Source: Brachycybe producta (Eukaryota; Arthropoda; Diplopoda; Playtdesmida; Andrognathidae). Taken from it: 64,000 nt of DNA. This document shows positions 1 through 20,991 of the stretch, piece by piece (within the stretch, counting starts at the first letter, position 1; each line of letters begins with the position of its first letter). The position numbers and the translations under genes are program-made. The notes below the pieces were generated by a model, which saw nothing but the letters and a program-made list of their open reading frames with translations, searched no databases and was not told the origin of the DNA. The DNA lies in NCBI GenBank assembly GCA_036925085.1, contig JAUPFP010000064.1, positions 283,330-347,329 on the forward strand, written 5' to 3'.

Positions 1-1320
1 AGATTGATTTTATTTTATTTGTTAAAAAACTTTGTATTTAAAAATTGTTTTTATTTCAATTTTATTTTTTAAAAAAGTTATTTTTATTTAAAATTTTATT
101 TTTTAAAAAAGTTATTTTTATTTAAATATTTTAAGATATAAATATTTGAAGTTTTTTTTGTTTTTAAAATCACATTTTTATTTAAATATTTAAAATTTAA
201 ATATTTGAAATTTTGTTTAAAAAAAATTTCTAATTTTTATTTAATTAGATTTTTTATTCGTAAAATTAATTTTTTTTTTCATTTTTTGATTTAATTCCAT
301 TGGAAAAAATAAGTTGGAGGGAAAAATGAATTCTTATTGCGATCCAATTTATAAAGAATGACATAAGGTATTTATAATATGGCATTTTTAAGAAATCGAA
401 CGGATAAATAAGTTTTCGGTCCTATTTTGAATTGTTTTGATGTGTTGTAGAGGGCCTACTTGAAACTACTTTTTCTTAAAAAATTAATTAAGGTGAAACT
501 GTATTTTATAAATTGGTATACTTTCAAGTTAGAAATTAGTGATAAAACGTGAAATTTGGTATTTTTCAAGCATTATACAGTATTTGAAAGGTACCATCGT
601 AAAATTACTTTTGCGAGGAACCCTTTTTACTTGTTCTAGTTTTCTTACAAACTTTTTAATTTCTTTCTGAAAATCACTTTTGATAACTTTGAAGGCATAT
701 AACGATGCATTTGATTAAAGTTCTTTTAAGTTCTTTTAGTGCCACACAACCTCTTTAAAGAGTTGTTGTTGCCCATAGTTAAGTTTTCAATTGGACATGA
801 AGAAGAATTTCTGGGATTGTGTTTAAGATTTCGTGTTTTCTGAAAACAGAATGAAAGTTCCGCATTTTCTTTGGTCATTTTTCATTTTTTTTTTGTTGAA
901 GAATTCTAATGAATACCATTGAATTGATTTGAATAAGTAGAAGATCTCCTAGACTCCTAGGCGTTTCTTGGTTTGAAAATATTTAATAATTTGTGTATTA
1001 AAGGGGGGAGGGTGGTGTTCTTTCACTCTTTTTTTTTTGCTGTTTTGGATGAGAGTGTGTTTTTCATGGAATGAAAGTTAGTGGCGCCCCTGGCAACATT
1101 TCAAAGCTTTTCCTTTCGATCTCTCTTTCCATACATTATATACTAGGTGGCACAATTAAAACGTTCCATGTTTAGAACTATATAAAATGCTGCACAATTG
1201 AAATTTTACACAGTTGTTTACAATAAAAAAAATTTAATTGTGCACAAGAATGGAAACATACCGGTTAAAAATGAAAAAAATTATTAAACTTGAAAAAGTC
1301 GAAAGGAAAAAAAAAATTCA
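1..1320. other. AT-rich non-coding stretch
   Basis: I see no gene here. The first 250 bases are nearly pure A/T with long T and A runs. The remainder is mixed AT-rich sequence with no inverted-repeat ends and no open frame of note. Confidence 0.6.
58..124. repeat. Two-copy AT-only tandem repeat, about 34-bp period
   Basis: A 33-base A/T string containing TTTTTTAAAAAAG followed by TTATTTTTATTTA occurs twice back to back with one extra A between the copies. Related TTATTTAAATATTT pieces continue to about 230. This looks like a small decaying minisatellite. Confidence 0.7.
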
Positions 1321-1612
1321 CACTGGACCTACGTTATGGTGGATAAAGTGGTCATTTTTTAACTGGTTATTGATTTACATAAGGGATCTTACACCTAAGC
1401 CACAGCCACCGTTTTTGTGTACCACAGTGATGATGAATGATTGAGTCCTGCGGCTCCTGCGTAAGTGGCATCAACCGCCTGTTCTTCAGGCTGCACTGAC
1501 AGCGGGACATTGTTTTTAATGGTGGTTCCTATGAGCAAACCACGCCAACCACTATTGATTGAGACGCCAAAAAGTAGTTCTACAAAAGTGGTTCGTGTGA
1601 AGCCGGTCTTAC
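1320..1612. mobile_element. Possible relic of the CCACTTTTGTGG MITE family (family C)
   Basis: The segment is richer in G+C than its surroundings. Its right edge reads GTGGTTCGTGTGAAGCCGG, close to GTGGTTCGTATAAAGCGGG at about 9188. The reverse complement resembles the left edge of the element at 3758. Only one edge can be aligned by eye, so the extent is approximate. Confidence 0.3.
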
Positions 1613-2292
1613 TTAGACTTAAAGAAGCGATTTTTAAACATCATTTTTTTAAAAAAAATTCAATAAAAGAAGATATTTAATGTTTTTTTCACACGAATAA
1701 ATTTTATGATATTAAAACGCTTCAAATTACAAAAAAAATATGTAATTATTTTTTTTTCCTCTGACAAATTGTTCTTTAAACATTACGCGTTTTCTTTGCG
1801 CCACTCTGATATTTTTGATGTATGTATGGATGTCAAAATATAAGAAGAAGAAGAAAAAAAAAAGAAAAAAAAAAACCGCTCTCATCTTACACCATAGGAA
1901 ATTGAATAGTGATTATCGCCTTTGATCGTCATGATGACAGATGCCTTTCTCTTCTTTATATATATCTATGTACCCCCCATTATTGAATGAATGGGCGACC
2001 AGTGTCCAATTTTTTTTTATATATATATATATACAGTACATGTATATATATAGGATATATGAAAAAAAGTATAATGTCTGGTCTAGTCTGGTCTTAGCAA
2101 TAGCTGTCAGCGTTTTGATAAGGCACCCGTCATATTTTAAACCTAGAGGATATTTGGAGGATTTTCTTATCCGAATATGAACGAGAGTTTTTCATTTTTT
2201 CTTTTGCCTCTTCTGACATTGTCTACATTTTGCAATGTATGACCTTATACTCTATTGAGACCTATATATATTTATTTATTTCACTTTGAAAT

Positions 2293-2295
<3 letters not shown>
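1613..2295. other. AT-rich non-coding stretch with short TA runs
   Basis: No gene is seen. Short TATATA tracts lie near 1955, 2018 and 2045, with an A/AAG-rich patch near 1850. Nothing else is supported. Confidence 0.5.

Positions 2296-2367
<72 letters not shown>
2296..2367. repeat. (AG)n microsatellite
   Basis: About 36 uninterrupted AG units. It creates no believable protein. Confidence 0.98.
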
Positions 2368-2369
<2 letters not shown>

Positions 2370-2429
2370 ATGAAAAAAAACTATAACTGGACATGAGTTG
2401 GTCTGAAATAAGAATTTAGTCTTATTTGC

Positions 2430-2441
2430 TGTGTGTGTGTG

Positions 2442-2526
<85 letters not shown>
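2430..2526. repeat. Compound (GT)n(TA)n microsatellite
   Basis: Six GT units pass directly into a long TA tract with a few CA interruptions. The Tyr-Ile repeat peptides in both strands here are translations of this tract, not genes. Confidence 0.97.
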
Positions 2527-2528
<2 letters not shown>

Positions 2529-3104
2529 TTGTATGAAGTTGAAACATTATTTTCACTTGAAATTGGACGTTTTACACGATGTGTGTTTTTCAATCAGAAC
2601 AAGACAAGAAAATGAAATCTTGAAGAAAAAGAAGAAGAAGAAAATTTCGGGGGGTTTCTTTTTCTGGTTTTTTCTTCTTCTTATAAATTAGATAAATCTT
2701 TTGAAATGATGCAACATTCAATTTCTTCGGTTGAATTATTATTTTTTTTTTGTAGAAAATGGTTGTTTGTTATGGTTGACTGAGTTGGGGGGGGGGTGAC
2801 TGGATGGATATAAGATCTGAGTTGTGAGATATTTGACAGATTTAATGTCCAATGATACTGAATAATATTATCGTTATATATATGAAAGATGGAAGAAGCA
2901 AAAGCAATGAGCAGAAACAAGCAGTTAAATTGTAAAGGGACACACACTTAACTCAGATTAATAGCTATCAATATTACTTTTTTTTTTTGAAAGCTGGTGT
3001 TTGTAACTACATGGTGGCGTTACAGTAGAAAAAAAGGGGGGGGGGGAATTGTATATTAATCGAATTTTATTGTATAGAAATACTTTTAATATTTCCCTCT
3101 CCCC

Positions 3105-3136
3105 CTTAAGCCTTGGCAATCACTGATAGCTACTGT
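3105..3136 (+). repeat. Copy of a small hairpin-repeat family (family D)
   Basis: The string CCCCCTTAAGCC is followed by TTGGCAATCACTGATAGC. It matches the left arm of the complete 68-bp palindrome at 31210 and partial copies at 21172 and 52182. Only the left arm is clear here. Confidence 0.5.
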
Positions 3137-3171
3137 AGTTTTATAGGTCTTCTTGTAAATAACCAAAGACC

Positions 3172-3755
3172 AAAGGGTCTCTCCAAACTACGGCCCACGG
3201 GCCAAATCCAGTTTGAAAAAAGATTTTATTTTGCCTGAGAATATTTTATTTAATATTTGACACCAGGCATAAATTGTTAACTTTTTTAAATTCTCAGTTT
3301 TCTTATCAAAAAATATTTTTCCTTGCATTATTTATATTTAAGGTGGTTTTAAAGTATAAACGCCTCTCAATTCTGTCTCTTTCACTTAAAAAATGAAGAG
3401 AAACTTGAATGTGTTTTAGAAACTAGAAGTGTAGCTTAATTATTTGAAGGCGTTATTGTGTTGATATTTTTCAAAATAAGCTTTTTATGCGAGTTTGAAA
3501 GGGATTCAACTTTAAAAACATTATAAAAGTTTATTTTGAAAAATATCAACATGAAATAGTACCGTTATGTGATTGAACTAACTTTCTAGTTTCTTAAAAC
3601 ACTTTCTAGTTTGTTTCTTAATGTTGCTCTTTATATCTGTACAAGCGCCTATAGGATTTATAGACCAAAAAATTATCTGTTTGTCGGTCTGGCCCACTAA
3701 GCACTTTCAACATTTTTATTTGGTCCTATTGAGGCTGACCATTTTTTCTCTTAAG
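3172..3755. mobile_element. hAT-type transposon relic, split by a nested MITE
   Basis: The left edge reads GGGTCTCTCCAAACTACGG followed by CCCACGGGCCAAATCC. The right part has GTCTGGCCCACTAAGCAC then TTTCAACATTTTTATTTGG. Ends of this kind (GGTCTCCAAACTACGGCCCG and GGCCCGCTGAGCACTTTCAA) are typical of animal hAT elements. A family A hairpin MITE occupies about 3368-3640 between these parts, so the hAT copy is the older insertion. No transposase frame is visible. The exact right boundary is uncertain. Confidence 0.6.
3368..3640. mobile_element. Family A hairpin MITE, copy 1
   Basis: Long inverted arms face each other. The left arm contains TTTTAGAAACTAGAAGTGTA and TTGATATTTTTCAAAATAAG; the right arm contains the reverse complement of closely similar strings. 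The same arms occur at 49386 and 52792, with fragments at 14660, 20536 and 61319. There is no coding capacity. Confidence 0.75.
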
Positions 3756-3757
3756 AT

Positions 3758-3935
3758 TGTAAGACGGGAACCACTTTGAGTGGTCGATTTCGACTGCAAA
3801 ATGAAGTCGTAGTGTCGCCCAAAACGGACCACTTTGAACCTTTGTCATAAAAGATACATTGCAGCCACAGCTCAACCACCTGCAACTTCATTTTACAGTC
3901 GAAATGAACAACCACCGTAAGTGGTCTGTGTGTGG
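3758..3935. mobile_element. Family C MITE, copy with both ends
   Basis: The left arm carries CCACTTTGAGTGGTCG followed by ATTTCGACTGCAAAATGAAG. The right arm carries CTTCATTTTACAGTCGAAAT then ACCACCGTAAGTGGTC, its inverted counterpart. A second copy with the same TTTCGACTGCAAAATG core lies at 26760. The element is about 178 bp and non-coding. Confidence 0.65.
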
Positions 3936-5018
3936 AAAGGGCATTTGTTTTGTGATAAGAGGGTCAGAGTTCTGGATTGTGTGGCTCCTTGTTTTAATTT
4001 CATTTTGCGTGCAATTTTCGGTACAAACCTCTGTTATCGTTGATCGCAATGATCGGTAAAAAAAACTCCTAGTAGACACATAAAAGTCAATATAGACATT
4101 CGCAAATAGCACTTAAAAGTTTGGTTTAAATGACTATTTGAGCTTAACTTTTAATCTGGTAGTTTTTAATTCATGTGATTGAAATTCACACGGACTTTTT
4201 TTTTTGGTTCAAATCTCATTAAACAATTGTCGGTTTTGAAGAGAAGTTAATTTTCATATAAATATAAATATATATTTACATTTTTGTTTGTGTATATTAA
4301 ATGCAGTTTTCCATATGCGCAATTAGGTAGATAAAGGAGGCCGGGGGGGGGGAGTTATGAATATTTGATGATCATAACTAAAAAGACCTTTTGTGGCTAT
4401 TTATGGAGATTAACTATTTGAAACCATTTTCAACTCTGTAATAAAAGCGTTCATTAATATTTGTTCGTTCTGTTATTGTTTATATATATATATATATTTT
4501 TTTGGTTGTCATGATTCTCCAAATGTCCTATATTAATAAATATGTATACCTGAAGGTCAAATACGGTTTTTTTCTCTCTATTGTTTTGAGGCTTTTGTGT
4601 TTACAGGTGGCACTAAATTTTGCTTTTCTAGTTAATACAATAATCAGCTTTAGTTTTAGGTATGTCATTTCTACTATATATAATAATGATCACGCTATTC
4701 TCCTCCCACTTCCTCTATATATATTTTTGCTAGCAAATAGTTTTTCTATTCATCTATAATGGTCAGACTATGCATTTGCATTAATAATTCATATTTATGC
4801 ATTTTGCACTTTTTTTTGTCTATTTATACATTCGTTTTTGATTTTTTTTTTTGGCATTAATTATTCGAGATCGATTAAATAGCTTACTCTCAGCTGCTTT
4901 TTTTTAGAATTGCTGGCTGCAGTGGTTTTATAGTTGCCTTTATGTTAGATGAAGTTTGTGACGACAGAGGGATTGACAAAAAAAATTTAAAATTGTGTTA
5001 TTTTGTCTGATGAAAAAC
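3936..5018. other. AT-rich non-coding stretch with a weak ratchet-like site
   Basis: No gene is seen. A G8 run lies near 4346 and a short TA run near 4480. At 4659/4660 a TTAGTTTTAG is followed by GTATGT, a weak version of the juxtaposed splice sites found at 10170 and 46235. Confidence 0.4.
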
Positions 5019-5032
5019 GGGGGGGGGGGGGG
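5019..5032 (+). repeat. G14 homopolymer
   Basis: Fourteen consecutive G in AT-rich surroundings. It is one of roughly 20 G or C runs of eight or more in the window. Confidence 0.95.
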
Positions 5033-5096
5033 ATAACAAATGAATGCCAGAAACAATTTTGTTTAACTGTTGAGGACATTTGATAAGTTTGATAAC

Positions 5097-5352
5097 TAGG
5101 GTTCGGATTTTGATGCAATATTAACCGGACTGTTTCTCAGTTTGTGACCCCAAGTGCCAATTGTGCTGGTTAGCGAGGCTAGATGTCTGGTTACTATCAG
5201 TTGTCAACTAGAGTTCTAGCCTCTAATCATTATTTTTTTAATTAGAAAGAACATTTTTTTTTTATCTAAACGAGAATGTTACTTTACAATTCTCATTTGG
5301 GCCACGTATTGAGAAACGTTCTGGTTGATACTGCATCAAAATCCGATCCCTA
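5097..5352. mobile_element. hAT-type MITE (family B, copy 1) with perfect 8-bp target duplication
   Basis: The element starts TAGGGTTCGGATTTTGATGC and ends with the inverse GCATCAAAATCCGATCCCTA. The inverted repeat continues inward for about 50 bases through TTTCTCA. It is flanked on both sides by TTGATAAC (5089-5096 and 5353-5360). Eight-base duplications with a TAGGG-type terminus are the hAT signature. The interior, including CTATCAGTTGTCAACTA, is shared with the copy at 8734. It is non-coding. Confidence 0.88.
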
Positions 5353-5360
5353 TTGATAAC

Positions 5361-6318
5361 ACAATTTTAAATTTTTTTAACAACCCTAGTGAGGCAACTG
5401 TAGTTAATTTTTATTGTTTTACTTAAGTCTAAAGTATACATATTTTATAATCACAATTCACCAGATACACATAGTTGTTTGTTTCACTTCAAGTTATACT
5501 GTTAACAATAGGGTGACCGCCATTTCCAATTTTTCTGTTAGGAGATCAGCTCTACTTAAAAATAACAAAATAAAATATATTTGATTTTTTTAAAATTTAA
5601 AATTATGTGATTTCAATCAATTTAATCTGTGACTATGCAGCGAGTTATTGATTTATCCAAAAATAGATAAAAAAAATATATTGAATGATTTTACATTAGC
5701 CGAATTGACTTTTAATTTGAAAGCTAAGAAGAAGGCCCTCAAGAACTTTTAGAAATGGTTATATGAAATTTTTTTTTAATTAAAAAAATAATATATATAT
5801 TTATACATTGAATAGTTTGTTTGTTTTGTCAGTTTTCCACCAAAAAATAGAATTGAAATTCTTCTCAAAATGAATATTTGTTTAGCATTTAAACTGGGTT
5901 CAATAAAAGAATATTTTTTTTTCTTCTTCATTTTATTTATTCAATTTAAGAATATTATAGAAAAATAGGTAGAAAAACAAATTAATTTCTTATTTGTTTT
6001 TGTCATCTCATTTTGCACATGTACATTGTATATACAGGTATTTGTGTGTTGTGTTGTGTGCGTGTCTATGTATGTTTTCTCTTTCAATGCTTGCACAAAA
6101 TACTGCTTCTGCTGCATCATGGGAATTTTCTTTCATAAAAATCTAATTTGCTTTTAGACCCTTTTTATCGTTATCATTCACTGGAAACCTTTAAGAATGA
6201 TAGCTTAATGTGAGTGAGTGAAAGAGTGAAAGGTGGGGGGGGGGCTGGCTACATATTATAATGCTGGTGGTGGTGGTGGTGTTATATGGAAAGGCGTTTT
6301 TTTTAGAATAGATAAGCA

Positions 6319-6356
<38 letters not shown>

Positions 6357-7255
6357 TAGCTGAAATTTGCCGTGCTTCTCAAATATATAAATAATTGAAC
6401 GATTTCTCCACCTTCTTAACAAACCCATGCTGTTTACAACATGTATAAGGCCTATGCTTTTTATCTGTTTTTTTTTCAACTTGCTATAAGCGAATAAAAA
6501 AGTGAAGAAAAAGGGAGGTTTTTACTAGGAAGGGAAAAAAAATTCGATCATATTCATGAAGTTTTTCTCTAGGTTGCTTAGGTTGGTTATATGTCGTCTA
6601 TACTTGGTGACGTCACTGTGGTCCGGCCACTTCGACTTCAAATATAGTCTGAGCTCTCTGGACAATCTCTATCACCACAATGTCACCTTAGTAGAACTCG
6701 TGCAGGAAAAAAAATAATAATGATGAATAAGGAAGGTGTTGTTGCTTGCTACTTGTGTCTTTTGTCTGGTTCATAAATATTTGTGCACTTGATGTGTGTG
6801 ACTGAACATAGCCAGGTTGCAGATTTTCAATATTTCTTGGTCACTTAATCTTCCATGACAACTGATGGTGTGATGGTGAATACAAAAAAAAAATAAGGAG
6901 GTCTAGGTTCTTGAATGATTTTCATGTATTAAAAAAAAATCCCCACAATGTGTTTGTTTGTTTGTTTGGCACAATGTGGATGTTTGGTGGTTTAGTAGCT
7001 GCTCAATTGTTGGGATGGGTTATATTTAGATAAAAGTATGGTTTGGATCTGTTTTTTGAATCTGTTTCTATTGAAACGAATATTAATAGAGAGAAGAAGA
7101 AAAAAATGTATAAAAGTCGCATTCAGAAAGGAGGCAGACTACAAACACGCACAATCTAAGGGTGGCTCCAGACGATGCGTGCACTTTTCGCATTGTCACT
7201 TTGAATATTGTGCAAAGAGGTTCAAGGTGAAAATATGACAACTGCACTGTGTTTT
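5361..7255. other. AT-rich non-coding stretch
   Basis: No gene is seen. It contains a G10 run near 6234, a short (GGT)n near 6265, an AG microsatellite, and TTTG repeats near 6950. About 7155-7235 reads like a MITE edge (TAAGGGTGGCTCCAGACG) whose partner end I could not locate. Confidence 0.45.
6321..6352. repeat. (AG)n microsatellite
   Basis: About 16 uninterrupted GA units. Confidence 0.95.
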
Positions 7256-7771
7256 CCAAAAAAAAATATATACACTTTGGTTGTTAATAACTGCCATGTT
7301 TATTTACTTAAATTTAATTTAATAATTTTCTAATTATGAGAATATAATTGTTACAATAAAAATAAAATATAACAGCATTGCATGTTTTATATTTAAATGG
7401 GGCAATTATCTCAAGTTTGTCAAATTGTCGTCCATTCTCATCAAGGCATTTCTGACATTGGCAAGAAACTGATTTGCAAACATTAAATGGGAAGAAATCA
7501 AACAATTGTCGCACAACAATTGCAAGATGTGCGCTAATTTAATTATCGATGTTTGAAGATCAGTTTCTTTTAATTGTAAGCAACGCGATTATGCGAATGG
7601 AAGACATTTTGAACACTTCAGAAGTTGAGATAATTATGCCTCATTTAAACATAAAACATGCAATGCTGTTATATCTAATCTTTATTGTAATATTTACTTG
7701 TAATTCTAAAATTAAAATTAAGAAAATAACCATGGCAGTTATTTACAACCAAAGTGTGTATATATTTTTGG
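7256..7771. mobile_element. 516-bp palindromic element, possibly Tc1/mariner-type
   Basis: Arms of about 220 bases (7256-7485 and 7550-7771) are inverted copies separated by about 60 bases. The outer part reads TATATACACTTTGGTTGT on the left and ACAACCAAAGTGTGTATATA on the right; GCATTGCATGTTTTAT and AGAAACTGAT recur inverted inside. TA dinucleotides sit at both edges of the ACACTTTGGTTG ends, which would suit a Tc1/mariner derivative. The two open frames here (66 and 81 codons) lie on opposite arms and only mirror each other. Confidence 0.65.
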
Positions 7772-7797
7772 GGCACACTTTCTGTATGTATTGATCC

Positions 7798-8195
7798 AAC
7801 CTAAGGCCAGTAGCAAAATGAGGCAGCAGTCTCCTCATATCGTTGAGTACTTGCTACAGTTGACTGTGATGTCCACTGCAGCTTGCAGCTCATAAAATGA
7901 GAGCAGCAGTTGAAAGCAGCTACTTTCAGGTAGCTAAGGCTGCCATTGCTTGGATTGACCTGCGATCAATCCAGGTAGCGAGTTGAAGCAACAGAACAAT
8001 CTGCGCATGAGCAGATTACAAAAGGAGATCTTCATCTGTGCATATAATTAAAAAGATTTATTTGCCATATTGAAAGGGGGGGGGAACTTAAGTTGTTTCA
8101 TGACAGTAAGCTGCTTCATTTGCTCATAGTTCAATAGTTACATTAATTCCATGCACTGTTGCACGAAGCAAGACACCGTCTAAACGAGGCTTTAA
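7798..8195. mobile_element. AGC-rich MITE-like repeat (family E, copy 1)
   Basis: The left edge CTAAGGCCAGTAGCAAAATG and the following GAGGCAGCAG match the reverse complement of the segment ending near 26412. Inside, CAGC/GCTG words are dense (GCAGCTTGCAGCTC). The inverse of AGCAAATGAAGCAGC near the right side pairs with the left end. The right boundary is guessed at ACGAGGCTTTAAG. Confidence 0.45.
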
Positions 8196-8733
8196 GCATA
8201 CTTTATAAAGAAAAAACCTTTATCCACAATTTTCTTGTAAACTCATCATGGTGTAACCGTTTCGTTTTTCTCTCATATTGCTTTTACTATGTCTAAACAA
8301 GTTTATATAGTGAGTTTTATGTTGTTCCCTTTTCTCTTAGTTTTGTTGCCTATTTCATTATTGAGCGTCAATGTAACAATTGCCAATTAGGTGTTCCTCC
8401 TTATCTAGACTTAGACTTGTGGAGGTACCTCAAATTATTTTCTTTTATTACTCAAATACCAGTGTTAGACGGTAATAAAAGAGATCTCTTTACAAGTTAA
8501 ACTGAAAAGTGGCGTGTTTACATGGAAATTGAAATGAAATCAATCAATATTTTAAGTTATTTGGCTTTTTTTTTATACTTTTTTTTTATTACTTGTAATC
8601 AATAAACCATATTAAAACAACCTTTATGCCATACATTTTTTTTTTAAAAATAATTATAAATTTACAATGTTATTTAAATTAATTGGTTAATGTAACTTAC
8701 GTTAAATACCAATTTTTTATTATTAAATTGTAA
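8196..8733. other. AT-rich non-coding stretch
   Basis: No gene and no repeat structure is seen beyond T runs near 8570. Confidence 0.5.
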
Positions 8734-9007
8734 TAGGGCTCGAAATTTTATGCAAAATCAAGAGATTGAAGTTCCTATTGTGAAGTAATCATCATCATGA
8801 GAGTAACTGCAGTTATGCTTGTTCTAATTAAAAATGCTGGTTAGAGGTTAGAGGCTAGATGGCTGGTTTACTATCAGTTGTCAACTACAGTGACTTTTGA
8901 CTGAAACAAACAATTGTTGGTTGATCTAAATGGGTCACAATTGGCTATTCGGCCACGCATGGAGAAACAACATTTGCTTTGATTTTGCATAAAAATCCGA
9001 GACCTTA
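8734..9007. mobile_element. hAT-type MITE (family B, copy 2)
   Basis: The left end TAGGGCTCGAAATTTTATGC and the right end GCATAAAAATCCGAGACCTTA are inverted. The interior holds GGCTAGATGGCTGG and CTATCAGTTGTCAACTA, shared with the 5097 copy, and GGCCACGCATGGAGAAAC matches its right arm. No target duplication is recognisable, so this copy looks older or its flanks have diverged. Confidence 0.75.
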
Positions 9008-9014
9008 TGATTAA

Positions 9015-9210
9015 AATCAAATATGGCAAACAGGCGGTGTTCGCCACTTGTGGCTGGGCTTGACCACTTTTCAACAATGTTTTGCAACCCCCCCCCCCTG
9101 CGGTGGCAGTGAGTGGGTTGTGTGAAAACACCTCCTTTGCAATCAATGATCTGCTAAAAACGGCCACTGTATTTGTCTACACAAAGTGTGGTTCGTATAA
9201 AGCGGGCTTT
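9015..9210. mobile_element. Family C-like MITE relic next to copy 2 of family B
   Basis: The segment contains GACCACTTTTCAACAATG, TTTTGCAACC, a C10 run, and the edge GTGGTTCGTATAAAGCGGG. These resemble pieces of the elements at 1320, 3758 and 26760. The arms are too diverged for exact borders. Confidence 0.35.
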
Positions 9211-10134
9211 ATCCTTTATCATTTGCGTTTATTGAAGTTATAAATACGTGTGTTAAATTCCATTTTTTTTATTTTGGACTGAAAACATTTTCGTCATTGC
9301 TATAAATTTTGGAACTTCTACTTTTGTGAAATGTGTTTGAATTTGTGGAATGTGAAACATGAGTTTTTGGCTGCGAATTCTTTATTTAATGTCCACCCCA
9401 TCCCCTCTCGCTCTCTCTCTCTCTCTCGATATATATTTCTTTAACCTTTAACGTCATCAGTTTGACACCTTTTTTTTTCTATTCTAGTCTCTATATAAGT
9501 CTAGCTGTATAATAAATATTTTGGTGCAGAAATAAAAGTTCTACAAAGTACAGTAGAAGCAGAAAAAGCTAATGAGAAATTCTTTCCACACATAAATGCA
9601 TACGTGGAATTTAGAACATTTTTTGGTGAATATACAATGCAAGAGTGCAAAAGTCACACATGATCAATTGTTTTTTTGCATATTGAGAGAGAGAGAAGGT
9701 AAGTTCACTTGGGGCTTTTCATGTGGAACTTCCATACAGTTCCACGGCTGATATTTTGAGAAGTAGTAGTTCCATGGAGGGCAAATAGATGGCAGTCTAC
9801 CCCTCAACTATATTTTTGACGATTTTCGGCGGTTCTTCGATTAAATTCGTCGGACTTAGCCTTATTCGGTTAACAATCGGATATTCGACTGATTTGGGGC
9901 TTCAAGTTCCGAGCAGTTGAAAGTTTGAGTAAATTTGGTGCCACATTTAAATGAACTAACCAGTAATCTCAAGTTGACAATTGGTAACATTTCTAAAACT
10001 ATAAAATTTCTATACATGTTGATCAACAACTCCCCCCCCCCGGTCTTTTGAGAATATTTATTTTTTAAAAATGGGGGGCATCACCTTTCTAACTTTGAAA
10101 CAGTTTTTTTATTGTTATTGGTTATTTATTACCT
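9211..10134. other. AT-rich non-coding stretch with one isolated consensus donor
   Basis: No gene is seen. GAGAAG then GTAAGT at 9698/9699 is a consensus 5' splice site. It is preceded by a frame open for about 37 codons from an ATG at about 9588, with no recognisable product. A C9 run lies near 10030. Confidence 0.4.
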
Positions 10135-10138
10135 TTTA

Positions 10139-10170
10139 TTAATTATTATTTCTTGTTTCGTTTTTTGCAG
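10139..10170 (+). promoter_or_regulatory. 3' splice site part of a candidate recursive (ratchet) splice site
   Basis: A branch-point-like TTAAT at 10139-10143 is followed by the pyrimidine tract TTTCTTGTTTCGTTTTTT and then GCAG ending at 10170. GTAAGC follows at once, so acceptor and donor abut with no exon between. Known recursive splice sites in long fly and vertebrate introns have this form: pyrimidine tract, YAG, then GTRAG. Confidence 0.6.
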
Positions 10171-10221
10171 GTAAGCTCGTTTTACTGTTTCTCTCCGAAT
10201 ATGTCTTCAGTTGCACATATC
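10171..10221 (+). other. Candidate 51-nt recursive-splicing exon or microexon
   Basis: The segment begins GTAAGCTCG, directly after the acceptor at 10170. It ends ATATC before a strong donor GTAAGTTAG at 10222. Vertebrate ratchet points are followed by such a short exon with its own donor. Two frames are open. The first would read VSSFYCFSPNMSSVAHI; another begins with the third base; the remaining one stops immediately at TAA. I do not recognise either peptide. It could equally be a rarely used alternative microexon. Confidence 0.4.
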
Positions 10222-10689
10222 GTAAGTTAGCGCTGTTTTTAGTTTATTTTTATTTTAAAGAACTAAAAAGTTTGTGGTGAAATTATTTTTAAAAAAATAT
10301 TTCAAGGAGGTTTTTTTTATATATATATTGATAAAATCATAATGAAAATGAGTGTAAAAATAATATATTTTGTTGCGTAGCAAAGTTTATCCAAAACGTT
10401 TATTTGAACTTATTCGTTTCTCTTGTTGTTTGTGTTTCTCGTGGCTCTGGTAAACTATAATGCCATTGGGTCGTATTAATAAAGTTGAGCATTTTACTCA
10501 CGAGTAATTAATAAACAAAAAAAGCAGAGTAAAATCCTAAAGAAATTAATATAGTAGCCGTATACGGAAACGATGTATTAGTATAACATAAATAAATTCT
10601 CTCGCAGTTTGAGTAAATACTTAATTTGTTTTATTTATCCCAAGTCGAGCACTTAGTGCTCCAAAAAGTTTGAGAAAAGAGCAAGTACT
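10222..10689. other. AT-rich non-coding stretch
   Basis: No gene or repeat structure is seen downstream of the putative ratchet exon. Confidence 0.5.
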
Positions 10690-10900
10690 CAAGTCATAGT
10701 TTTGACAGGGGTTTACTCCCCGGGGGGGGGGGGCGTCACTTTTTTACCGTTCTCAACGTATGGCCACCGTGACCAGTTTTGACCATGGTAAGTCCCCCTT
10801 TTGACCACGGTTGGCCGGAAGTGGGCCCGGGGTTGCCGACCACCCTGCCGGGTCCTAACCGACCAGGATCGGTCGACGTTTTTTCGACCGCAAACAAGTT
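10690..10900. repeat. GC-rich patch with G12 run
   Basis: G+C rises sharply, with a G12 run at 10722-10733 and the words GACCACGGTTGGCCGG, GGGCCCGGGGTTGCCG and GGTCGACGTTTTTTCGACC. It also contains ATGGTAAGTCC near 10786. The composition resembles MITE ends elsewhere in the window, but I could not pair two ends. Confidence 0.35.
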
Positions 10901-11217
10901 TTATTAATGCCACCCCTTTTCTGATAACAACATTGCAAGACAAAAAGATCTCCTCAATGATGATGTCACAATTTTACTCTTTTAACTTTTTTTTCTTTCT
11001 TCTTCTCACTTAATTCAAGTTATAGTTACCCGAACCATTGTTTTGTGCTCCAAATTTAATTAAAATGGGGAATGAAGGTTCTGAGGGAGAAGAGCAATAA
11101 TTTTACTACTATGCAGTTCCTATACTAGCTACAATAATACTATTACGTTGCCAGGGTTTTAATTTAGCCATTGCGTTTGTATTTCGTGGTGTTCTTTCAG
11201 TAATTATTGTTAGAAAT

Positions 11218-11229
11218 GGGGGGGGGGGG
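11218..11229 (+). repeat. G12 homopolymer
   Basis: Twelve G followed by purine-rich GAGAGAG and GGGGGAAGGGG, a purine-skewed patch. Confidence 0.9.
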
Positions 11230-11639
11230 AGAGAGTTTGGCTGGGGGAAGGGGTGGAGGTGGAGGGTTAGTAAAAGTGTTTACAACAAAACCTACAAATG
11301 TACACATATTTGTTAAGGTGTATATATAGAATTTCTTCATAAGATCGAGTTTGAATTACAAGAGAAAAAAAAATGTTTCTAGCCTGAAGTCCATCCACAC
11401 CATTTGAAACAAAAAAAAAATTACAAATTACAACTTTTTTTTTGTTATCTTTTGTTTTATTTGTTGAAAATAATAAGAAAAAAAAGTTGTAATTGCATTG
11501 GCTGCAATTTCACAAGCTGAAAAAAATATTTCTTCTCAACGCTTGTTGAAAATGTTTCTATCTTCGTTTCGAAAATTGAGTGTTAGTTTTGTTCTGAATC
11601 CTTCATATATAAGTGAGAATCTGGTTGGTTAAATTGAAT

Positions 11640-12720
11640 TAGGTTTGGGATGTCGAAATTGAACAAGAAGCAAGCAAGCTACAAAGCAATTCAGTTTAGC
11701 ACCTTTTTTCTGTTGATGTTATTCATTCTTAGCACTTGTTGAGCTTTGTTAAAACTTAAAAGTGCTAAATTGAATATGAGCTTTAAATCCGAGCAAGCAC
11801 TCTGTAAGAGCTAAAGAAACAAGCTCGAAATTTGATCACATACTTGTACTTCTACGACTACAGAGCCAGTGCTTAACTTGCGTAGAACCTACAAAAACAA
11901 TGTGGCAAATTAAAAATAGCTAAATAAAGAAGCGCCAAACTTATTTAGCCTTATAAGGGCAAAATTGAGAACGAGTTAAAACAAGCTTACAAACTTACTT
12001 TCTAAATAAATTCAAAACTGGCTCTATAGGATGTACATGCTAAATAGGAGAAAGATAAAAAACAAGCACCAACCAGAATAAAGCTTGGTTTATACTCTAG
12101 CAAAGCTGCAAAACATACATCGGAAAACTTCAAGAAATGACGTCAGAGCTTCAGATTTTTGCCAGAGCATGAAGCTAGCTTTGAAATTGTTTAACTTTTC
12201 AAAGCTTAACAATTCAATTAAGCACAAATCATAAAACAGATGCACAAAATGTAGTTATCAAGTTACACCTTCTTTCTTCCATAAGGTGTTTATATAGGAT
12301 TATAATGGTTATAAAAATATTATTGTTAAGCTTTGGCAAGACGATGTGTTTGTATGAACAAGCTAAGCTTTATGGAACTAATTTTTAGCAGATTCAAAGC
12401 TCCAAATCTTAGCAAAATTTGGAGTATAAATCTGCTCTAAAAGCTGCAACAAATAAGCTCTGAACTTTTCAAGACCTGAAAAGCAAGTTCTAATTTGATT
12501 AGACCTACAAAAATTCTAAAACTAAAAATCAAGTGCTAAATACTGTTTGTGCTATAAACTGTGTTAAACTGAAAAAGTTCCTGCATTACATAAAGGAAAC
12601 TATAAACTGAAAATGTGTGCTATAGGAAAGGAGCTAAACTGAAAATTTCTAAAAGTTTGCATAAAATGTACATTAACATGAGCTTGACTTAAACATGCAC
12701 CTAATACTTAAAACTATACT
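11640..12720. repeat. Decayed A-rich array of AAGCT/GCTAAA words
   Basis: For about 1.1 kb the + strand becomes A-rich instead of T-rich, and the words AAGCT, GCTAAA, CTAAACTG and AGCAAGC recur at irregular spacing. This looks like an old tandem array whose period has been lost. A similar texture occurs at 40490-41790. No frame is open. Confidence 0.35.
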
Positions 12721-12789
12721 AATGTAATCGGATTTCCGTTTAGTACTTGTTAAACTTTAGCTGCTTCTTTGAAACAGAAGCTGTTTTTA

Positions 12790-12809
12790 CCCCCCCCCCC
12801 CCCCCCCCC
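12790..12809 (-). repeat. C20 homopolymer
   Basis: Twenty consecutive C, the longest homopolymer of either G or C in the window. Confidence 0.95.
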
Positions 12810-13780
12810 AATTTAGGATTTGCACCATTTGTAGAGATTGCAAATAAAAAAATTTCAATTTGAACACATGGCTTTTGTACTGCATCACAAGATTACAATT
12901 GAGTTTTGCTCATTTTTTTTGTGTAGTTTTTTTTTATATATATATGTCCACAGTTAGTACATTTTAGAACCAAAATTGTTTTCTCTAGTACGCCTTTTTA
13001 GTAGGCTTTACTGGGATGAACTTAACAAAGCCGTCCAAAATGGGAAACAAATTCAAAGCATAATAAAAGGACCATCCATGTCTCTTTTATGCTGGATTTT
13101 GGTTGTATTTCAGAGCTTATTTTTTTTTGTTTTGTTAGTTTAACATTTATAGGAGCATGTGTTTGTAGTTGCGTTTCAATTATACATTAGAATTAGATAG
13201 AATCCAACGAGGGTAAAAGTGGGGGGAGGGTGGAGTTAAAGCGAGGAAAAGTGATGATTAATATATACAGTAGTCACCACCCACCATCACCATTAGTAAT
13301 AGATGGCTTTGAATTGGTAGTAAAAAATACAGAGTGACCACAATGTCTTGTTACCCATTGTTGAAATTGGTTACATTGCTGAGATTTTGTAACCATAATT
13401 TTCATTCGTTCATTCACTCAAGTTTATGAAAATGAAATTTTTTAAAAGAAAATAATGCAAATTTATGTTTTGAATTTGAAAAATTCTGCGATGAGGAGGA
13501 GGTCAATGGAAGAGGTCTGTCGCAGATTAAACAATTGTTGTTTTAAGTTCAGCATGTAAAAATGGACTGTCAAAACCAGAAAACATAAAAATAATAATTC
13601 CACTGTGCATTCATTCATGCAGGTTAAGCTGCATTGTTTCAGAAAAAAAAAATCTATAAAACTCATGAAACAATTCATTTTTAAGCACAAACTTTGTTCG
13701 AAAGTGAGTTTCATTATGAAATAACTGTATGATTGGACAAATGACCAGTAACTATGAGTCTGTTTTTGTAGAAATCTCTT
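12810..13780. other. AT-rich non-coding stretch
   Basis: No gene is seen. The minus-strand frame near 13463-13714 is Leu/Phe-rich with no family resemblance. Confidence 0.5.
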
Positions 13781-13826
13781 AATTTTGCTAGTGGTGGGTC
13801 AGGGATGACCCACCACTAGCAAAATT
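13781..13826. repeat. Perfect 21-bp hairpin with GGGA loop
   Basis: AATTTTGCTAGTGGTGGGTC and a final A form the left arm (13781-13801). The loop is GGGA. The right arm (13806-13826) is the exact reverse complement. The arms end abruptly at AATT/AATT. No other copy is seen in the window. Confidence 0.95.
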
Positions 13827-14367
13827 ATACTGAAATTATACCAAAAATATACTGTGGAGATAATTTTTCCTTGAAGTTAGTTGGTTTAGAACAAAACCCA
13901 ATGTTTTATCCATTTGATGATATATAGAAATTCACAAATAAATCTAGCAATGTTGCATTTATTTTTGTATGGTGAAACAATAAGACGTTATAATCACCCT
14001 GTAGTATAAACAATTTGTTTAATCGATTTGTTACTTTGCTTTTGTCTTAATGAGGTAAAACAAAAAGCTTCGGATACAGTGGGGGGGGGGGGGAAAGGAG
14101 GGAAGGAGATTGAAATGTGCCCCTCTGGTACTGCCATTTTGTATTACTGATAATTGTGTATGGCACTCTGTCAACACCTGAGCACAATCATAAAAGTTGA
14201 TCCTCTTTTTCTTTTCTTACACTCTCCCCTCCCCCTCTCTCCCTCTTTCTTTCTCAAATTGCCACCACCTTGGTGCAAATTGAGCAACATCGAAAACGAC
14301 CAAAACCCTGCTTTTGTTATGTATTACTTACAAGCAAAAGCAACGTTCAAGTTTTAATTTATCTTTT

Positions 14368-14371
<4 letters not shown>
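13827..14371. other. AT-rich non-coding stretch with G13 run
   Basis: No gene is seen. A G13 run lies at 14081-14093. Confidence 0.5.

Positions 14372-14407
<36 letters not shown>
14372..14407 (+). repeat. (CT)n microsatellite
   Basis: About 17 CT units, preceded by a T run. Confidence 0.95.
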
Positions 14408-14409
<2 letters not shown>

Positions 14410-14659
14410 AATCTCCCTTTTTGTGTGGCTTTTGTCTACATTCTATCTCTTGTTTTAAACTTTGTCTTTCATTAGAGGTTTTTACTAAACCCAGAGTTCT
14501 TCTGTTAATTGAGATTTGATAGATAATAATAAATAACAGGCTTGTAAGATAACGTAAAACTTTCAGAACTGCTTTTATGTAAGATGCTGTTTTTATAAAC
14601 AGCCATTGCAAAATATGCAAATGAAGGAGAACTATTTAAATAGAACTCTTGTCATTGTG

Positions 14660-14745
14660 CTTTTCAGAATTAAGAAAAAAATTGAAAGTGGTTTTTTTTA
14701 GAAACTAGAAGAGTAAAATGAAATCAAGAGATTTTCTAAAAAGTA
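14660..14745 (+). mobile_element. Family A hairpin MITE, left-arm fragment
   Basis: TTTTCAGAATTAAGAAAAAA then TTTAGAAACTAGAAGAGTAA match the left arm of the copy at 52792. The upstream TAGAACTCTTG is also shared with sequence just outside that copy, so the true element end may lie further out than drawn there. The second arm is missing. Confidence 0.55.
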
Positions 14746-14873
14746 AAAATAAAAATCATCATTATTTATTTATCCAAAAATAAAATAGTTCCCAGAATGA
14801 ATATTATGCCAGTAGTGAGCTGATAGGTTGGGACAACCCACATTAGCCACCATTGGTGTTGTTGAACATATGG

Positions 14874-15242
14874 AGCCTGGTGCAAAAAGTTGTCAACATG
14901 CGGAATGCAACAGGCTGCAGAGGCTGTGTATTCAGGACGACGACATTCTCCAACTGTTATGTTTCAAGCAGAACTTTTGTCTGCAAGTAAAGCATGTTGT
15001 CTCTTAGCACAACAAAACTGGGTAGATTGGAGTCTTTCTCGCACTGTGACTTGACACTGAACTAGTTTGAAACATTCTCAGAATACAATACAAATTTACA
15101 TTCATCGAATGTATTATATTATTTGTTGCTTTTTCTAATTTATGTTGAAAATTAGTTTACAAAATAACGTAAATTGCGTTTTTTCTGATGTTTTTTTTTT
15201 CTCATGGTGCCATACTATGTTAACTAAATTTGCACCAGGTTT
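14874..15242. mobile_element. MITE with CCTGGTGCAAA ends
   Basis: The left end GAGCCTGGTGCAAAAAGTTG followed by TCAACATG pairs with the right end CATACTATGTTAAC then TAAATTTGCACCAGGTTT. The inverted repeats are about 25 bases and imperfect. The element is about 369 bp. The middle holds moderately GC-rich unique sequence and no open frame. Confidence 0.6.
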
Positions 15243-15555
15243 GACGCCAATATGACATCGTTCCTATATTGGCGTACCATTTAAGCATAAAACCTCTCTA
15301 TTTTCATTTTGTTTTCTTTTAATACTGTGAAATCAATTAAATATAACTTATCTAAATTTACAAGTGATCTTCACGAAGAATTTAAAACTTCTCTTTGTTT
15401 CTATCAAACGAAAGGGCTAAGAGGAAGGAGGAGGCAACAACGCGTTTAATTTTCTGCGAAAATTGAGTTTTTTGGTTTTTCGATACCTAATTGTTTTGAT
15501 GTTTCTTTAATAAAAATTCTTTCCAAGATTCTATTTCTATTCTGAATTACTTTCT

Positions 15556-15966
15556 AAAGCCTTGTTTTCACGATGATAGTTTTCACGATAGTTGCTGTCA
15601 TGATAGCAGCAACAATCGCGAGAACTATCATCTTGAAGACCACATGTTATAGCCACTATGACACTGTTGCGATAGCTCTATCACAACTATTTCGTTTGAC
15701 TAGATAGTTGATAGTACTGTCAAGCTATAGTAATAGTTGTTGGAGTGGTCCGTTTTGTAGGGAAATATCCACTTTTTGTAGGGAGAGAGAGGCAACACTG
15801 TTGTGTTGACTCAATATGATATCTGTGAAGTAGACGTCACACTTCTCATGACAGAAGTATCACGTTCCTTCAACACGTATAGAAAGTTGCTATCGTGAGA
15901 GTGAACTATCGCAACTTTCGTGACAACTACTCTCATGAAAGAACAATCTCTGTGAAAACGAGGCTG
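15556..15966. mobile_element. MITE with AAGCCTNGTTTTCAC ends and ACTATC/GATAGT repeats
   Basis: The left end is AAAGCCTTGTTTTCACGATG. The right end, GTGAAAACGAGGCTGAAG, is its inverse. The interior repeats GATAGTT and AACTATC words in both orientations, making many local hairpins. The termini resemble those of the element at 60615 (GTTTTACGCGACGATA). Confidence 0.65.
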
Positions 15967-17673
15967 AAGTTTCTTTTCTATCATTTCTTTCTGTTGATGC
16001 TATCTTTTTTTAAAAAAAACTTCTTTTTCCCCTCCTTCCTATTTGTCCTTATATCTATTTGCACGTAAATTGAACGTAATGATACCAAATGACAAATGCT
16101 TAAGTGAATGGAAAGTAATTTAATCCCAGGAATGCGTTTATAAGACGAAACTATCCAATCCTATCCTGTTGTAAGCGCTAAACATAATAATTACGACTAA
16201 TCTGAATGGTGTGTACACACTATACTACACTATGATATATATATTATATCAAATAATATCACAAACCTAAATACTTTGCACTTACATGCAATGAATAAAT
16301 AATATACTGGATGGTGCAAAACCAATTTGCCAAGTCTTTGAAAAAGAGGTACACTAATTCAAGTTCTAGTAATAAAGCTTACATTGTTGAAACTCTTAAG
16401 GGCCTACTCATTAAATGGCTTCAAGTTTACTTCTACTATGTACAACCTATGGAAGGCATTTTTCAAGAAGGGAAGTTGGCAATTGAACTTTTTTTAAAAA
16501 AAAAATGTTAGTTGGGTTTTGTCCCAAGCTAACCGCTAGTACACTGTGCAAAGCTGTACATTATGGGTAGAGGTGACCACTCTTAAGAAAATTTAAGATT
16601 TCCGCACATACACACTCGTATTTTTGGGTCATTTGTACCTAGGGTGATATTCGACAAAGGAATTTACTTCCAGAGGAGGTTGTGCATGGGGAACATTTTG
16701 ATTTAGGCAATTTGCTACCATTCAACTTAATGTTATATTTGCATGAGGAGTTGTTATAGTAGGTGATAGAAGTTTATTTTGACAATGCATTTCTATGCAG
16801 CTTGTCCAAGCCCCTGTTATTCAAATTATTAAAAAAATAATCCAAGTGGATCTTTCTATAATGATACCATGCTTAAAGAGTTGAGGTTCAAAGTGCACAG
16901 AGTTTTTTCTTTAATTTGTGTTTTAATCTTACTATTATAACTATTGTTAATGACACAATAAGTACCTTATTCGTTCAGCCCATTGATTTTAATTTGAATT
17001 AAGTATTTTTGTTAATATTTGAAAATGAATATACATCATTCTGATTTGATTAAACGATTGCCTATAAAATGTACGGTAGTGTAATTTATTTTTTTAATTT
17101 ATAAATGATAAAGAAATGGAAGTTGTAGAGCCTAGCTTTAGCTTTCTTAGCTCAAATCAAGCTAGATTTTTCAGAGAGAAAAAAAATGCATGTTGATGAT
17201 GATGATGAATGAATGTTTCCAAGACTTGTTCTATGCAAGTATTACATTCTATAAAGTAAATCAGAATGAGAAAAAAAAAACTTCATTGCATGCTGATGCA
17301 ACCCCCAATGTCTTATGCATGCATTTTGTCATTAGTTCTCATGCTTCTTTTTTTTTCTTGATGTCGAATCTCCTTCATGAAAACACACACATACAAGTAC
17401 AACACAATCACACCACCGTGAGCTATATAGACATGATTCTCTCTCTTTCTATCTCTCCTTATTTCTCTTGTCTACCGATTTTCAGAAACTTTTTTTCCAA
17501 AATGGAATTAAGTCGAAATAATTACACGATTATGTGTAATAGCATTAGGCGCTTCATCTAAATTACTCGACGAAGCAGAAACATGGAAAGAGGAAAGTGT
17601 TGGTTGTATGATGAATGGTGACTGACGACACACGCACACACACACACTATATCAAGAGTAAACCAACCGCACT

Positions 17674-17677
<4 letters not shown>
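15967..17677. other. AT-rich non-coding stretch
   Basis: No gene is seen. It includes a short TATATATAT near 16234 and a (GAT)n near 17195. The 123-codon frame at 17190-17561 is a low-complexity Met/His/Ser-rich translation without a domain. Confidence 0.45.

Positions 17678-17717
<40 letters not shown>
17678..17717. repeat. (GT)n microsatellite
   Basis: About 20 GT units followed by degenerate TGTGT-rich sequence to about 17860. Confidence 0.96.
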
Positions 17718-17719
<2 letters not shown>

Positions 17720-18195
17720 CGTTGCATGGGGTGTTTGTCAGTTGGTGTCTTGTGTATGTGTGTGCCTGCTTATTTCCGTATGCTTTTTGGGTGGAATAGG
17801 TATGTACTCGCCAGTGTCTCTGTGTGCCACACTTTATGTAATTAATGTTTGTGTGTTTTAAGATTTATGGCCCACCCACCAAGAGTTTTTAGGCCCGTCA
17901 TCAAAAAGTCCTTTTATCATTCCTGTTACTGGGCTCTCATAGGTGACCACTGCTGACCAGGCACTGCATAAACAATGCAGGTTTCTTTATGGCTATATCC
18001 AGAGACACAGATCTAACACCACTGCAAAGCATACCATAGATTCTCTGGCAAACTCACCACTATCTCTATTACTGTGATCAGACTGCAATTAGGATTGAAT
18101 GCTGCATTAGTAAATGCATCATTGAAGCAGTTTTGAAACCACTTTTATGTTCAGACTACCACTTTCAATCTGGTTTTTAGAATATGTTGTTAGAG

Positions 18196-18468
18196 CAGTG
18201 GTCTTAAAACATTTTTGGTCGTGCACCGCCCCTACTTCCTGAATAAAACGGAGCACGCACCCCCGAAATAAATAACTGGTGACTTGACAGTCACCACCAC
18301 TTACTTTCCTGTCCGATTACTTGATCGACAGGCACCATTTTCCTTTTTAGCGCACTTTCTGGTGCAGACAAGATTCTAACATAGCCCAAATGAATAAATA
18401 TCAATTCATTGCAAATTTTGCACACACTCCCATGGACCATCTCGTGAACCACACTTTGGAGACCACTG
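18196..18468. mobile_element. hAT MITE with CAGTGGT ends
   Basis: The left end CAGTGGTCTTAAAACATTTT pairs with the right end CACACTTTGGAGACCACTG. The flanks TGTTAGAG (left) and TGTTAAGAG (right) are a near-identical target duplication with one inserted base. CAGTGGTTCTCAAACTTT-type ends plus 8-bp duplications define many animal hAT elements. It is 273 bp and non-coding. Confidence 0.85.
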
Positions 18469-20530
18469 TGTTAAGAGCGTTACTTGTATAAATAGCAACC
18501 AAAATGCATTTATAAACTTGTGTGCACTTTATGCGTCATTTTTTTTTTTTCAAGTTTTGTTAATATTTCATGAAAATATTTACTGAAATCAAAAAGTACA
18601 TATATTTTAGAGCATATAATGATATATTCATATAAACATTTGTGAGATTTTCTCGTAATAATTTTTTTTAAAATTATTTATTTAACATTTATATGTAGTA
18701 ATCTAGTTTTTTTTCATCATCACAAAATGTATGCCGAGTTTGTTGCCATACAACGATTAAAATCCTAAAGAAATTCAGGCTTTTTTGAATGTTTTCTTTT
18801 TTTTTTTTGAGTTGATAAAAAAAACTTAATAATAATTAAAATAAACTTTGTTAAGACAAAATTGGCAAATTGTTTACTAAAAGTTGTTCTGAAATATATG
18901 TACTTTTTTATTTCAATAAAGATTTCCATGAGATTCTCACAGAAATTGATGAAATTTAGCTCTAACGTAGGTTGCTATTAATTTTCCCTTAGCTGTAAAA
19001 GCGTATGTGGGCAATATACGTGTGTGTGTGTGTGTGTTTGTGCGGTGTGTGAGATTGTCTTGAATACGTGTTATGTGTGGGATACATGTAGATACACCGT
19101 GTTTGTCCTTTCGTTTTTTGTGTCAGATTTTGTTGTTGTTGCGACAGTGATGATGATGAAGACTGGTTGTTTGCTTGTAATTGAATTTCTGCCACCGCCA
19201 CCAACGCAACTTTTACCCATCCCTTTTCCATTTTTTTTTTTCACCCTCGTCCTCCTCTTCCATCATGTTTTTTTTTTAAGTTTTTGGTCGAATAATGAGA
19301 ATGTATGGAATAATTCGTCTACGCTTATGTTAGCATATAGTCTATCCAAACTCCATCCTTTGAATAAAATACGATGTTCACAACTTCACATACTCTCTCA
19401 TACATGAATTTTTTTTTTCTACATCCTAGACTAGGGTTTTTTTTGTACAAAAGACTTATTACAGGACCGAACATCGGAGTATTTTTTTTTTCGCAATTCG
19501 TTCTCCTTGAAGTTATTATAATTTTGTGAGGGTGGATGAGAGAAGAGAGATCAGAACATGAAATGAGCTCTATGTATATATTAATATTTATCTGAAGTGA
19601 ATAAATATACTACCAGACCTCCCTCCCTCCTCCTCTACTCCCCCCATACACATACTGTAGATTTTTTTTTTTTGAGAAGAAGAAAAAATATATGATTAAG
19701 GGGCAGGAAAACTAATTTTCGAAGCTGAAAATATTATTACTTTCTTATGAGTTTGGGCATTTCTTTATATATAGATAGATAGAGAGAGAGGTCATCTCTT
19801 GAGTGTAGGCCTACCTCGATTTTTTTTTATTCATCATAAATGAATATATTATCTAAAAAGCAGATTAAAACACGAACACACAGAAATAATCAATACAGTT
19901 CAAAAAATTGAATTGAAAGATCCATGCATAAATAGCATTGATAAATTAGATTAAAAAAAATGGTTAATGTGGTTTAGTAGTCCTCTGTTCAGACGAGATA
20001 GTTTGATGTTGGTTATGATAACTTGAGTTTCTGGAAGTTAGTTATTGAAACTTAGGTTAAAGTTACAGTTGTAGTTTTGATTAAAAGTCTCTTGTCTCTG
20101 AACATGGGTATTTAAAGGAGAGGATGTGGACAAAGTGCGATGAAGTTTTTTTTTAATGGCAATTATAAATAGGGATACAGTCATTGCAGTTATTGATTTT
20201 AACGTTAACATGTGGGCCGTCAAGAAATGGATGTCTATTTTGGACGAGCAAAGCAGGTGGCTAAATTATGAATTGACGTTGTGTTTTCAGATCTCTCCCT
20301 ATCTCGATGTTGTTTGCTGTATTAACGTGAATGTAGTTCGGGTAGAGAGATTGTTGTTTAAATGTTGTGGGGACAAAACCACATCCAAACACCCCACCCT
20401 CACAACAAACACGTGTGTTGTTTAGACACAAACACGCACAAACTATATCTATTGCCATATAAACAATTTAATGAGAATATTGACGTAAGAGTACTTTGTG
20501 GTGTCTACGTATCCAGAAGTAATACAATAA
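18469..20530. other. AT-rich non-coding stretch
   Basis: No gene is seen. It holds a short GT tract at 19020-19037, T-rich runs and a (GATA/GA)n patch near 19772. Local open frames are short, overlap on both strands and lack recognisable content. Confidence 0.45.
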
Positions 20531-20535
20531 ATTTG

Positions 20536-20573
20536 AGTGTTTTAAAAACTAGAAGAGTAAATTAATCACTTAA
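20536..20573 (+). mobile_element. Family A hairpin MITE, short fragment
   Basis: GTGTTTTAAAAACTAGAAGA followed by GTAAATTAATCACTTAAG matches the left arm of the family A elements at 3368 and 52792. Confidence 0.45.
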
Positions 20574-20887
20574 GACGATCGTCATCGAATTAAAGTATAA
20601 TATAATGTATATAACGATTTAAAATTGTCGGTTTTCGTTTTCCACTTTAAATTAGCCCAAAATGCGGAAACCGTTCTACTTGTCAATTTTCAAATGTTGT
20701 CATAAAAATGTTTGTAATTTGAACCTGTCACTGTAAATAAAATACGGTATTCTTGCGTAATTCATCTACTTTTGGAGTTTTTTTAAAACATTTTAAGTTT
20801 TTTTGAATTTTGATATTCTAAAACGTTGCTTAAAATAAAGCTAAGCTTAAATTAAGACTTTTGACAAATTTTTCTATAACAAGCCTA

Positions 20888-20933
20888 TGACGAAGTTTTA
20901 AGTTGTAACTTTGTCAACTTAAAACTGTAACGT
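20888..20933. repeat. Short hairpin, 12-bp perfect core stem
   Basis: AGTTTTAAGTTG (20894-20905) and CAACTTAAAACT (20915-20926) are exact inverse copies around a 9-base loop. TGACG and CGTCA form an outer stem after a small bulge. Confidence 0.8.
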
Positions 20934-20991
20934 CAGAGAGCTTTTTATCATTTTCTCTCTTAAAAATGACTTAATAAAAGTAGGCCTATTC

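Follow-up and report, generated by a model that had tools for sequence, protein, structure and literature searches.

Does the junction at positions 10170/10171, where a complete 3' splice site meets a complete 5' splice site, mark a point at which a long intron is removed in steps, and what then would become of the 51 nucleotides that follow it? This question is raised by a locus in the genome of the millipede Brachycybe producta (295 Mb in 442 contigs). The window, that is, the whole stretch of 64,000 nucleotides analysed, corresponds to positions 283330-347329 of contig JAUPFP010000064.1 (hereafter C64), and positions refer to the window unless a contig is named. Experiments have documented ratchet points, at which introns are spliced recursively, in flies and, to a lesser extent, in vertebrates. 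The mechanism itself is already known, and the array described here is a probable further case of it.

The elements of the site lie close together on the plus strand. A branch-point-like TTAAT (10139..10143) starts 32 nt 5' of the junction and precedes the 3' splice site of the candidate ratchet point, a pyrimidine tract closed by a CAG (10148..10170), with pyrimidines at 16 of the 20 bases 5' of the CAG. This acceptor ends at 10170 and directly abuts a GTAAGC starting at 10171 (10171..10176), the 5' splice site that would be regenerated after the first splicing step; exactly 51 nt further on, at 10222, starts a GTAAGT (10222..10227) that would define a recursive-splicing exon (RS-exon) of 51 nt (10171..10221), open in two of the three reading frames. 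Both this motif layout and the two open frames agree with the original prediction. A repeat copy was considered and rejected, since the 201 bases around the junction match only themselves genome-wide (very common words being skipped by the search), and neither known RNA families nor tRNAs were found in the 64-kb window.

A second putative recursive splice site (46213-46319), which had gone unmentioned in the original prediction, is found 36.1 kb 3' of the first. It comprises a branch-point-like CTAAT (46202..46206), a pyrimidine tract with TAG (46213..46235), a ratchet 5' splice site GTAAGT (46236..46241) and a 78-nt RS-exon (46236..46313), with stops in all three frames, which would be defined by a further GTAAGT (46314..46319), all on the plus strand. 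These two are the sole occurrences of the core [CT]AG/GTRAG (the slash marks the junction) on the plus strand of the window, and the minus strand has none. Both have a tract of 16/20 and a GTAAGT 3' of the core, at 51 and 78 nt, respectively. In a null of 300 first-order shuffles the mean was 2.4 cores per strand, 0.49 when a tract of at least 13/20 was included and 0.007 when a GTAAGT within 60 nt was included too.

The original prediction depended on a plus-strand gene spanning the locus, and such a gene was found: the whole window (1..64000, plus strand) lies, we infer, within the first intron of a TMTC2-like gene. An open reading frame on the plus strand of C64 matches TMTC_DUF1736 (PF08409) with 108.6 bits (cut-off 27), and TPR families were matched on all three TPR-type exons submitted, with E-values down to 3.6e-6, each below the curated cut-off. 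The host gene thus combines the TMTC DUF1736 domain with TPR repeats, as a member of the TMTC family, and has its stop near 381.5 kb of C64; the search for further coding exons covered C64:83330-397329, and a few of the candidates were tested by homology. Exon 2 (C64:365463-366054, plus strand) starts 18.1 kb past the end of the window. It is the best of ten matches to a human TMTC2 N-terminus (83% over residues 21-76), and has no Pfam, NCBIfam or PDB match. Exon 1 (C5:5491997-5492235, plus strand) ends in ...TATGATGACAG followed by GTAAGG; its fusion to exon 2 yields an unbroken frame of 277 residues, with the intron between them in phase 2.

The search for exon 1 gave a single place in the genome, and the DUF1736 search gave six matches, including one on C64 but none on C5. 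Judging from the join of the two exons and from these searches, all eight sites described below would lie in intron 1. With exon 1 at 5.49 Mb of the 9.65-Mb scaffold C5 and exon 2 on C64, intron 1 is not contiguous in the assembly. As the next plus-strand match on C5 to a loose search pattern for such sites (T6), 3' of exon 1, comes only at 8.38 Mb, that scaffold does not display the ladder's first steps. The split is probably an assembly fault, and we think that either C64 is a fragment left unplaced or C5 was misjoined; that the two exons reside on separate chromosomes and are joined by trans-splicing is a remote alternative.

The two sites of the window belong to a larger array. We analysed C64:43330-397329, the window included (5,100 bases therein being N), and computed enrichment in the 322,133 bp (about 322 kb) 5' of exon 2, counting as strong sites those YAG trinucleotides preceded by at least 14/20 pyrimidines. 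On the plus strand, YAG/GTAAG junctions end at C64 positions 74430, 123614, 152673, 193165, 240398, 240584, 293499 and 329564, of which 293499 and 329564 are window positions 10170 and 46235. Thus, 8 of 750 strong sites are followed by GTAAG on the transcribed strand, against 0.41 expected (Poisson P about 1e-8), and 0 of 645 on the complementary strand of the same 322 kb; at 16/20 pyrimidines or more, the counts are 7 of 213 and 0 of 183. The background of GTAAG alone is similar on the two strands (175 on plus, 151 on minus). An additional plus-strand YAG/GTAAG at C64:59501 was left out of the count, its tract being poor (8/20).

A ranking with splice weight matrices, which are generic and not derived from this species, placed the seven sites identified by then at ranks 1-5, 7 and 8 among the 1480 AGGT sites that both strands of a 314-kb stretch contain; rank 6 is a minus-strand site. 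At scores of at least 10, the one threshold for which a null was run, there were two sites on the plus strand and none on the minus strand (shuffle mean 0.17), and at 11 or above no site was observed.

The spacing of the array is also regular. The steps between sites measure 49.2, 29.1, 40.5, 47.2, 53.1 and 36.1 kb, with 35.9 kb from the final site to exon 2, so that the sites divide the intron into segments of similar length. With the doublet at 240398/240584 (186 nt apart) entered as a single step, the coefficient of variation is 0.21, a value matched by 0.02% of uniform placements (P 2e-4). From the spacing of the sites known by then, a further plus-strand site was forecast at about C64:60000-83329 before the sequence was inspected, and was found at 74430, as the sole strong-tract YAG/GTAAG on either strand in that 40-kb stretch. 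Before 74 kb no further C64 site appeared among the matches listed by two patterns, which include just three and two of the eight known C64 sites.

The donors and the reading frame bear on the fate of the 51 nucleotides. A GTAAGT lies 20-100 nt 3' of three of the eight sites (at 51, 72 and 78 nt), compared with 11 of 1386 control acceptors (Fisher 4e-5); the remaining five have none within 100 nt. Branch-point-like elements (CTAAY, TTAAY or CTGAY) accompany five of the eight C64 sites and 69 of 420 control tracts (P 0.005), and are absent from the other three. According to the original prediction, the donor at 10222 was the stronger one, and this holds for its six intronic bases; with the exonic ATC included it does not, as ATC/GTAAGT scores 1.1 and the regenerated CAG/GTAAGC 8.5 with the generic matrices. 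Skipping of the 51 nt is thus predicted, the regenerated donor outscoring that of the RS-exon. With the same matrices, the regenerated donors (7.6-9.0) exceed the best donor 20-150 nt 3' (at most 4.2) at all eight sites. Site 240398 is nearly a tie, since the donor of its doublet partner, 186 nt further 3', scores 7.7 and the regenerated donor 7.6. Because the intron is in phase 2, any exon starting with GTAAG brings the same stop into frame, and inclusion of each of the three RS-exons tested gives GAC AGG TAA, with the stop at codon 81.

All together, these features are consistent with the following sequence of events. First, the acceptor at 10170 and the donor at 10222 would together mark the 51-nt unit as an exon. 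Joining of the upstream exon to 10171 would then regenerate CAG/GTAAGC, and this donor, rather than that at 10222, would be spliced to the next site at 46235 and onward to exon 2. The RS-exon would thereby be skipped, and the ladder would remove the intron in steps of about 40,000 bases. If skipping failed, the predicted mRNA would read ...GAC AGG TAA and stop at codon 81. The motifs, their strand bias and spacing, the host gene, the outcome for the reading frame and the computed donor scores come directly from the analysis; the use of the eight sites in vivo, the order in which they would be spliced and the fate of any mis-spliced mRNA are what we infer from this arrangement.

An ordinary cassette exon of 51 nt, rarely used or poisonous and never a recursive site, would likewise account for a complete acceptor and donor and for the premature stop that follows inclusion. 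For such a cassette a donor at the very start of the exon would be superfluous, but GTAAG is found in that position at eight sites where 0.41 are expected; moreover, these sites are evenly spaced, and five of them lack a GTAAGT within 100 nt. We therefore regard the cassette exon as unlikely.

A second alternative, that the sites are chance matches in T-rich intron sequence, leads to the rest of the genome, which is AT-rich. Over the whole assembly, matches to the loose T6 pattern show no excess over those to its reversed control (303/111 versus 257/597, counts inflated by runs of T), so that many isolated matches may be due to chance, and the case rests on clustering and strand. In this regard, a stricter pattern (T9: nine T, a gap of up to 14 and YAGGTAAG) gave 63 distinct sites in the genome, 38 on the plus and 25 on the minus strand. 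Neighbouring T9 sites within 150 kb were on the same strand in nine cases and on opposite strands in none (seven and none without C64), while random placement, with contig ends ignored, gave a mean of 0.99 same-strand pairs and never reached seven in 20,000 trials. Within 300 kb the numbers were 11 and 1, and within 60 kb, 3 and 0 (2 and 0 without C64, P 0.06). This one-sided clustering, together with the 0 of 645 on the opposite strand of the 322 kb, the even spacing and the finding of the forecast site, argues against chance, which we hold to be very improbable.

Same-strand clusters are found on C12 (4.67-5.29 Mb, plus strand), C17 (229-323 kb, plus strand), C84, C41, C16, C68 (minus strand) and C2 (10.74-10.79 Mb, plus strand), and these are likely to be other giant introns. 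We examined 17 site contexts, 15 from same-strand pairs outside C64 and two from C2, all chosen for clustering and not at random. Eight of these 17 have a GTAAGN 44-106 nt 3', an uncontrolled count. When the cluster-chosen and C64 sites are combined, a branch-like element is present in 16 of 23 as compared with 69 of 420 (two of the 25 sites were dropped, their upstream context being too short).

As for the sharing of RS-exon sequence, the C16 pair alone is clearly homologous. Its two sites, at 2.595 and 2.622 Mb (27 kb apart), are alike over the RS-exon and beyond, and the exons measure 44 and 46 nt, as would be expected if a non-coding unit had been duplicated. In the C17 array, the exons of three sites begin alike, with GTAAGTG(TG)GATTATT; the alignment scores of this trio are marginal, and some pairs from different loci score equally.

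The remaining alternative, a coding microexon of the TMTC2-like gene or of an unrecognised plus-strand gene, had been left open by the original prediction on the strength of the two open frames; it can be set aside as extremely unlikely, because in the host frame the exon reads AGG TAA and the stop at codon 81 excludes a coding microexon in the TMTC2-like gene, no frame is open across the second unit (46236-46313), and ten open reading frames of the window, compared with known families in Pfam, gave weak matches for three and none at the curated cut-off. Two short window frames compared with solved structures gave nothing convincing (best E-values 0.0047, to a designed helical protein, and 1.2).

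Some other sequences of the region may be recorded here. A protein-like open stretch, STGVYTLGKELTKNYPVKPEKLQEIENLIFNGKPVKMNR, lies at 43831-43950 (plus strand) after an acceptor-like site, and no family was found for it. At 54950-55452, a 24-base tandem array holds 21 copies of TTTTTTTCAGTTTTCTGAAGATTT, which amount to repeated acceptor-like TTTCAG units. Inside the intron, on the minus strand of C64 (159660-160370), there is an open reading frame of 237 amino acids with coding character and no Pfam match, possibly a nested gene. Elsewhere in the assembly, COX1 on contig C442 carries 10 in-frame TGA codons.

Taken together, the position in the first intron of a plus-strand gene, the strand bias of eight to none, the even spacing, the excess of GTAAGT and of branch-point-like elements, the forecast site and the clusters elsewhere in the genome support the reading first proposed for this locus: we consider it highly probable that 10139-10227 represents a recursive splice site and its 51-nt RS-exon, one of at least eight co-oriented sites in intron 1 of the TMTC2-like gene. 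With moderate confidence, we further propose that recursive steps of tens of kilobases are the general way in which this lineage removes its giant introns, and that the phase-2 TAA serves here as a built-in proof-reading device. The recognition of an evenly spaced array from sequence alone, including one site that was forecast and then found, suggests that giant introns outside flies and vertebrates can be read as ladders, with a step enlarged to about 40 kb. How widely recursive splicing occurs among animals could thus be examined in genomes and RNA data that already exist.

The RS-exon layout in a long intron, with a premature stop on inclusion, resembles that of vertebrate sites, for which the 2015 work of Sibley reportedly describes recursive sites with RS-exons in long introns and premature stops when these are included. 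That study is listed among the references of PMC13105047. In the library searched, no paper treated recursive splicing together with TMTC2, nor with octopus. Table 2 of PMC2773006 gives little motif enrichment for the large introns of vertebrates (ratio 0.9-1.5), unlike the eight to none between strands found here. For introns longer than 50 kb, the same table lists motif frequencies per 100 kb of 2.2 for fly, 0.54 for sea urchin and 0.12 for human; the present eight per 322 kb are fly-like in density, though scored differently from that work. An enrichment of such sites in large introns is also described in PMC2773006 for sea urchin, mosquito, bee and beetle, and the motif is likewise enriched on the transcribed strand here; in those animals, however, the enrichment is statistical and drawn from many introns, whereas here it takes the form of regularly spaced sites within a single identified gene.

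A close parallel is found in Drosophila, whose ratchet points were originally reported by Hatton, Burnette and Duff, as cited in PMC8605326 and PMC6110457. Fly ratchet points are described as enriched in first introns, with cryptic RS-exons of about 50 nt (PMC6110457, PMC8605326), and as following the rule that the stronger donor decides, so that the RS-exon is skipped (PMC8605326). The present array shares with them an acceptor that abuts a donor, an RS-exon some 50 nt long, generally out of frame and delimited by a donor on its 3' side, a stronger regenerated donor that would lead to skipping, the location in a first intron and the division of that intron into chunks of intermediate size. 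It differs in that GTAAGT lies within 100 nt at only three of the eight sites, and in that the array is known from its sequence alone. The steps differ as well: intron segments between fly ratchet points typically measure 9-15 kb (PMC6110457), whereas those of the millipede ladder span 29-53 kb.
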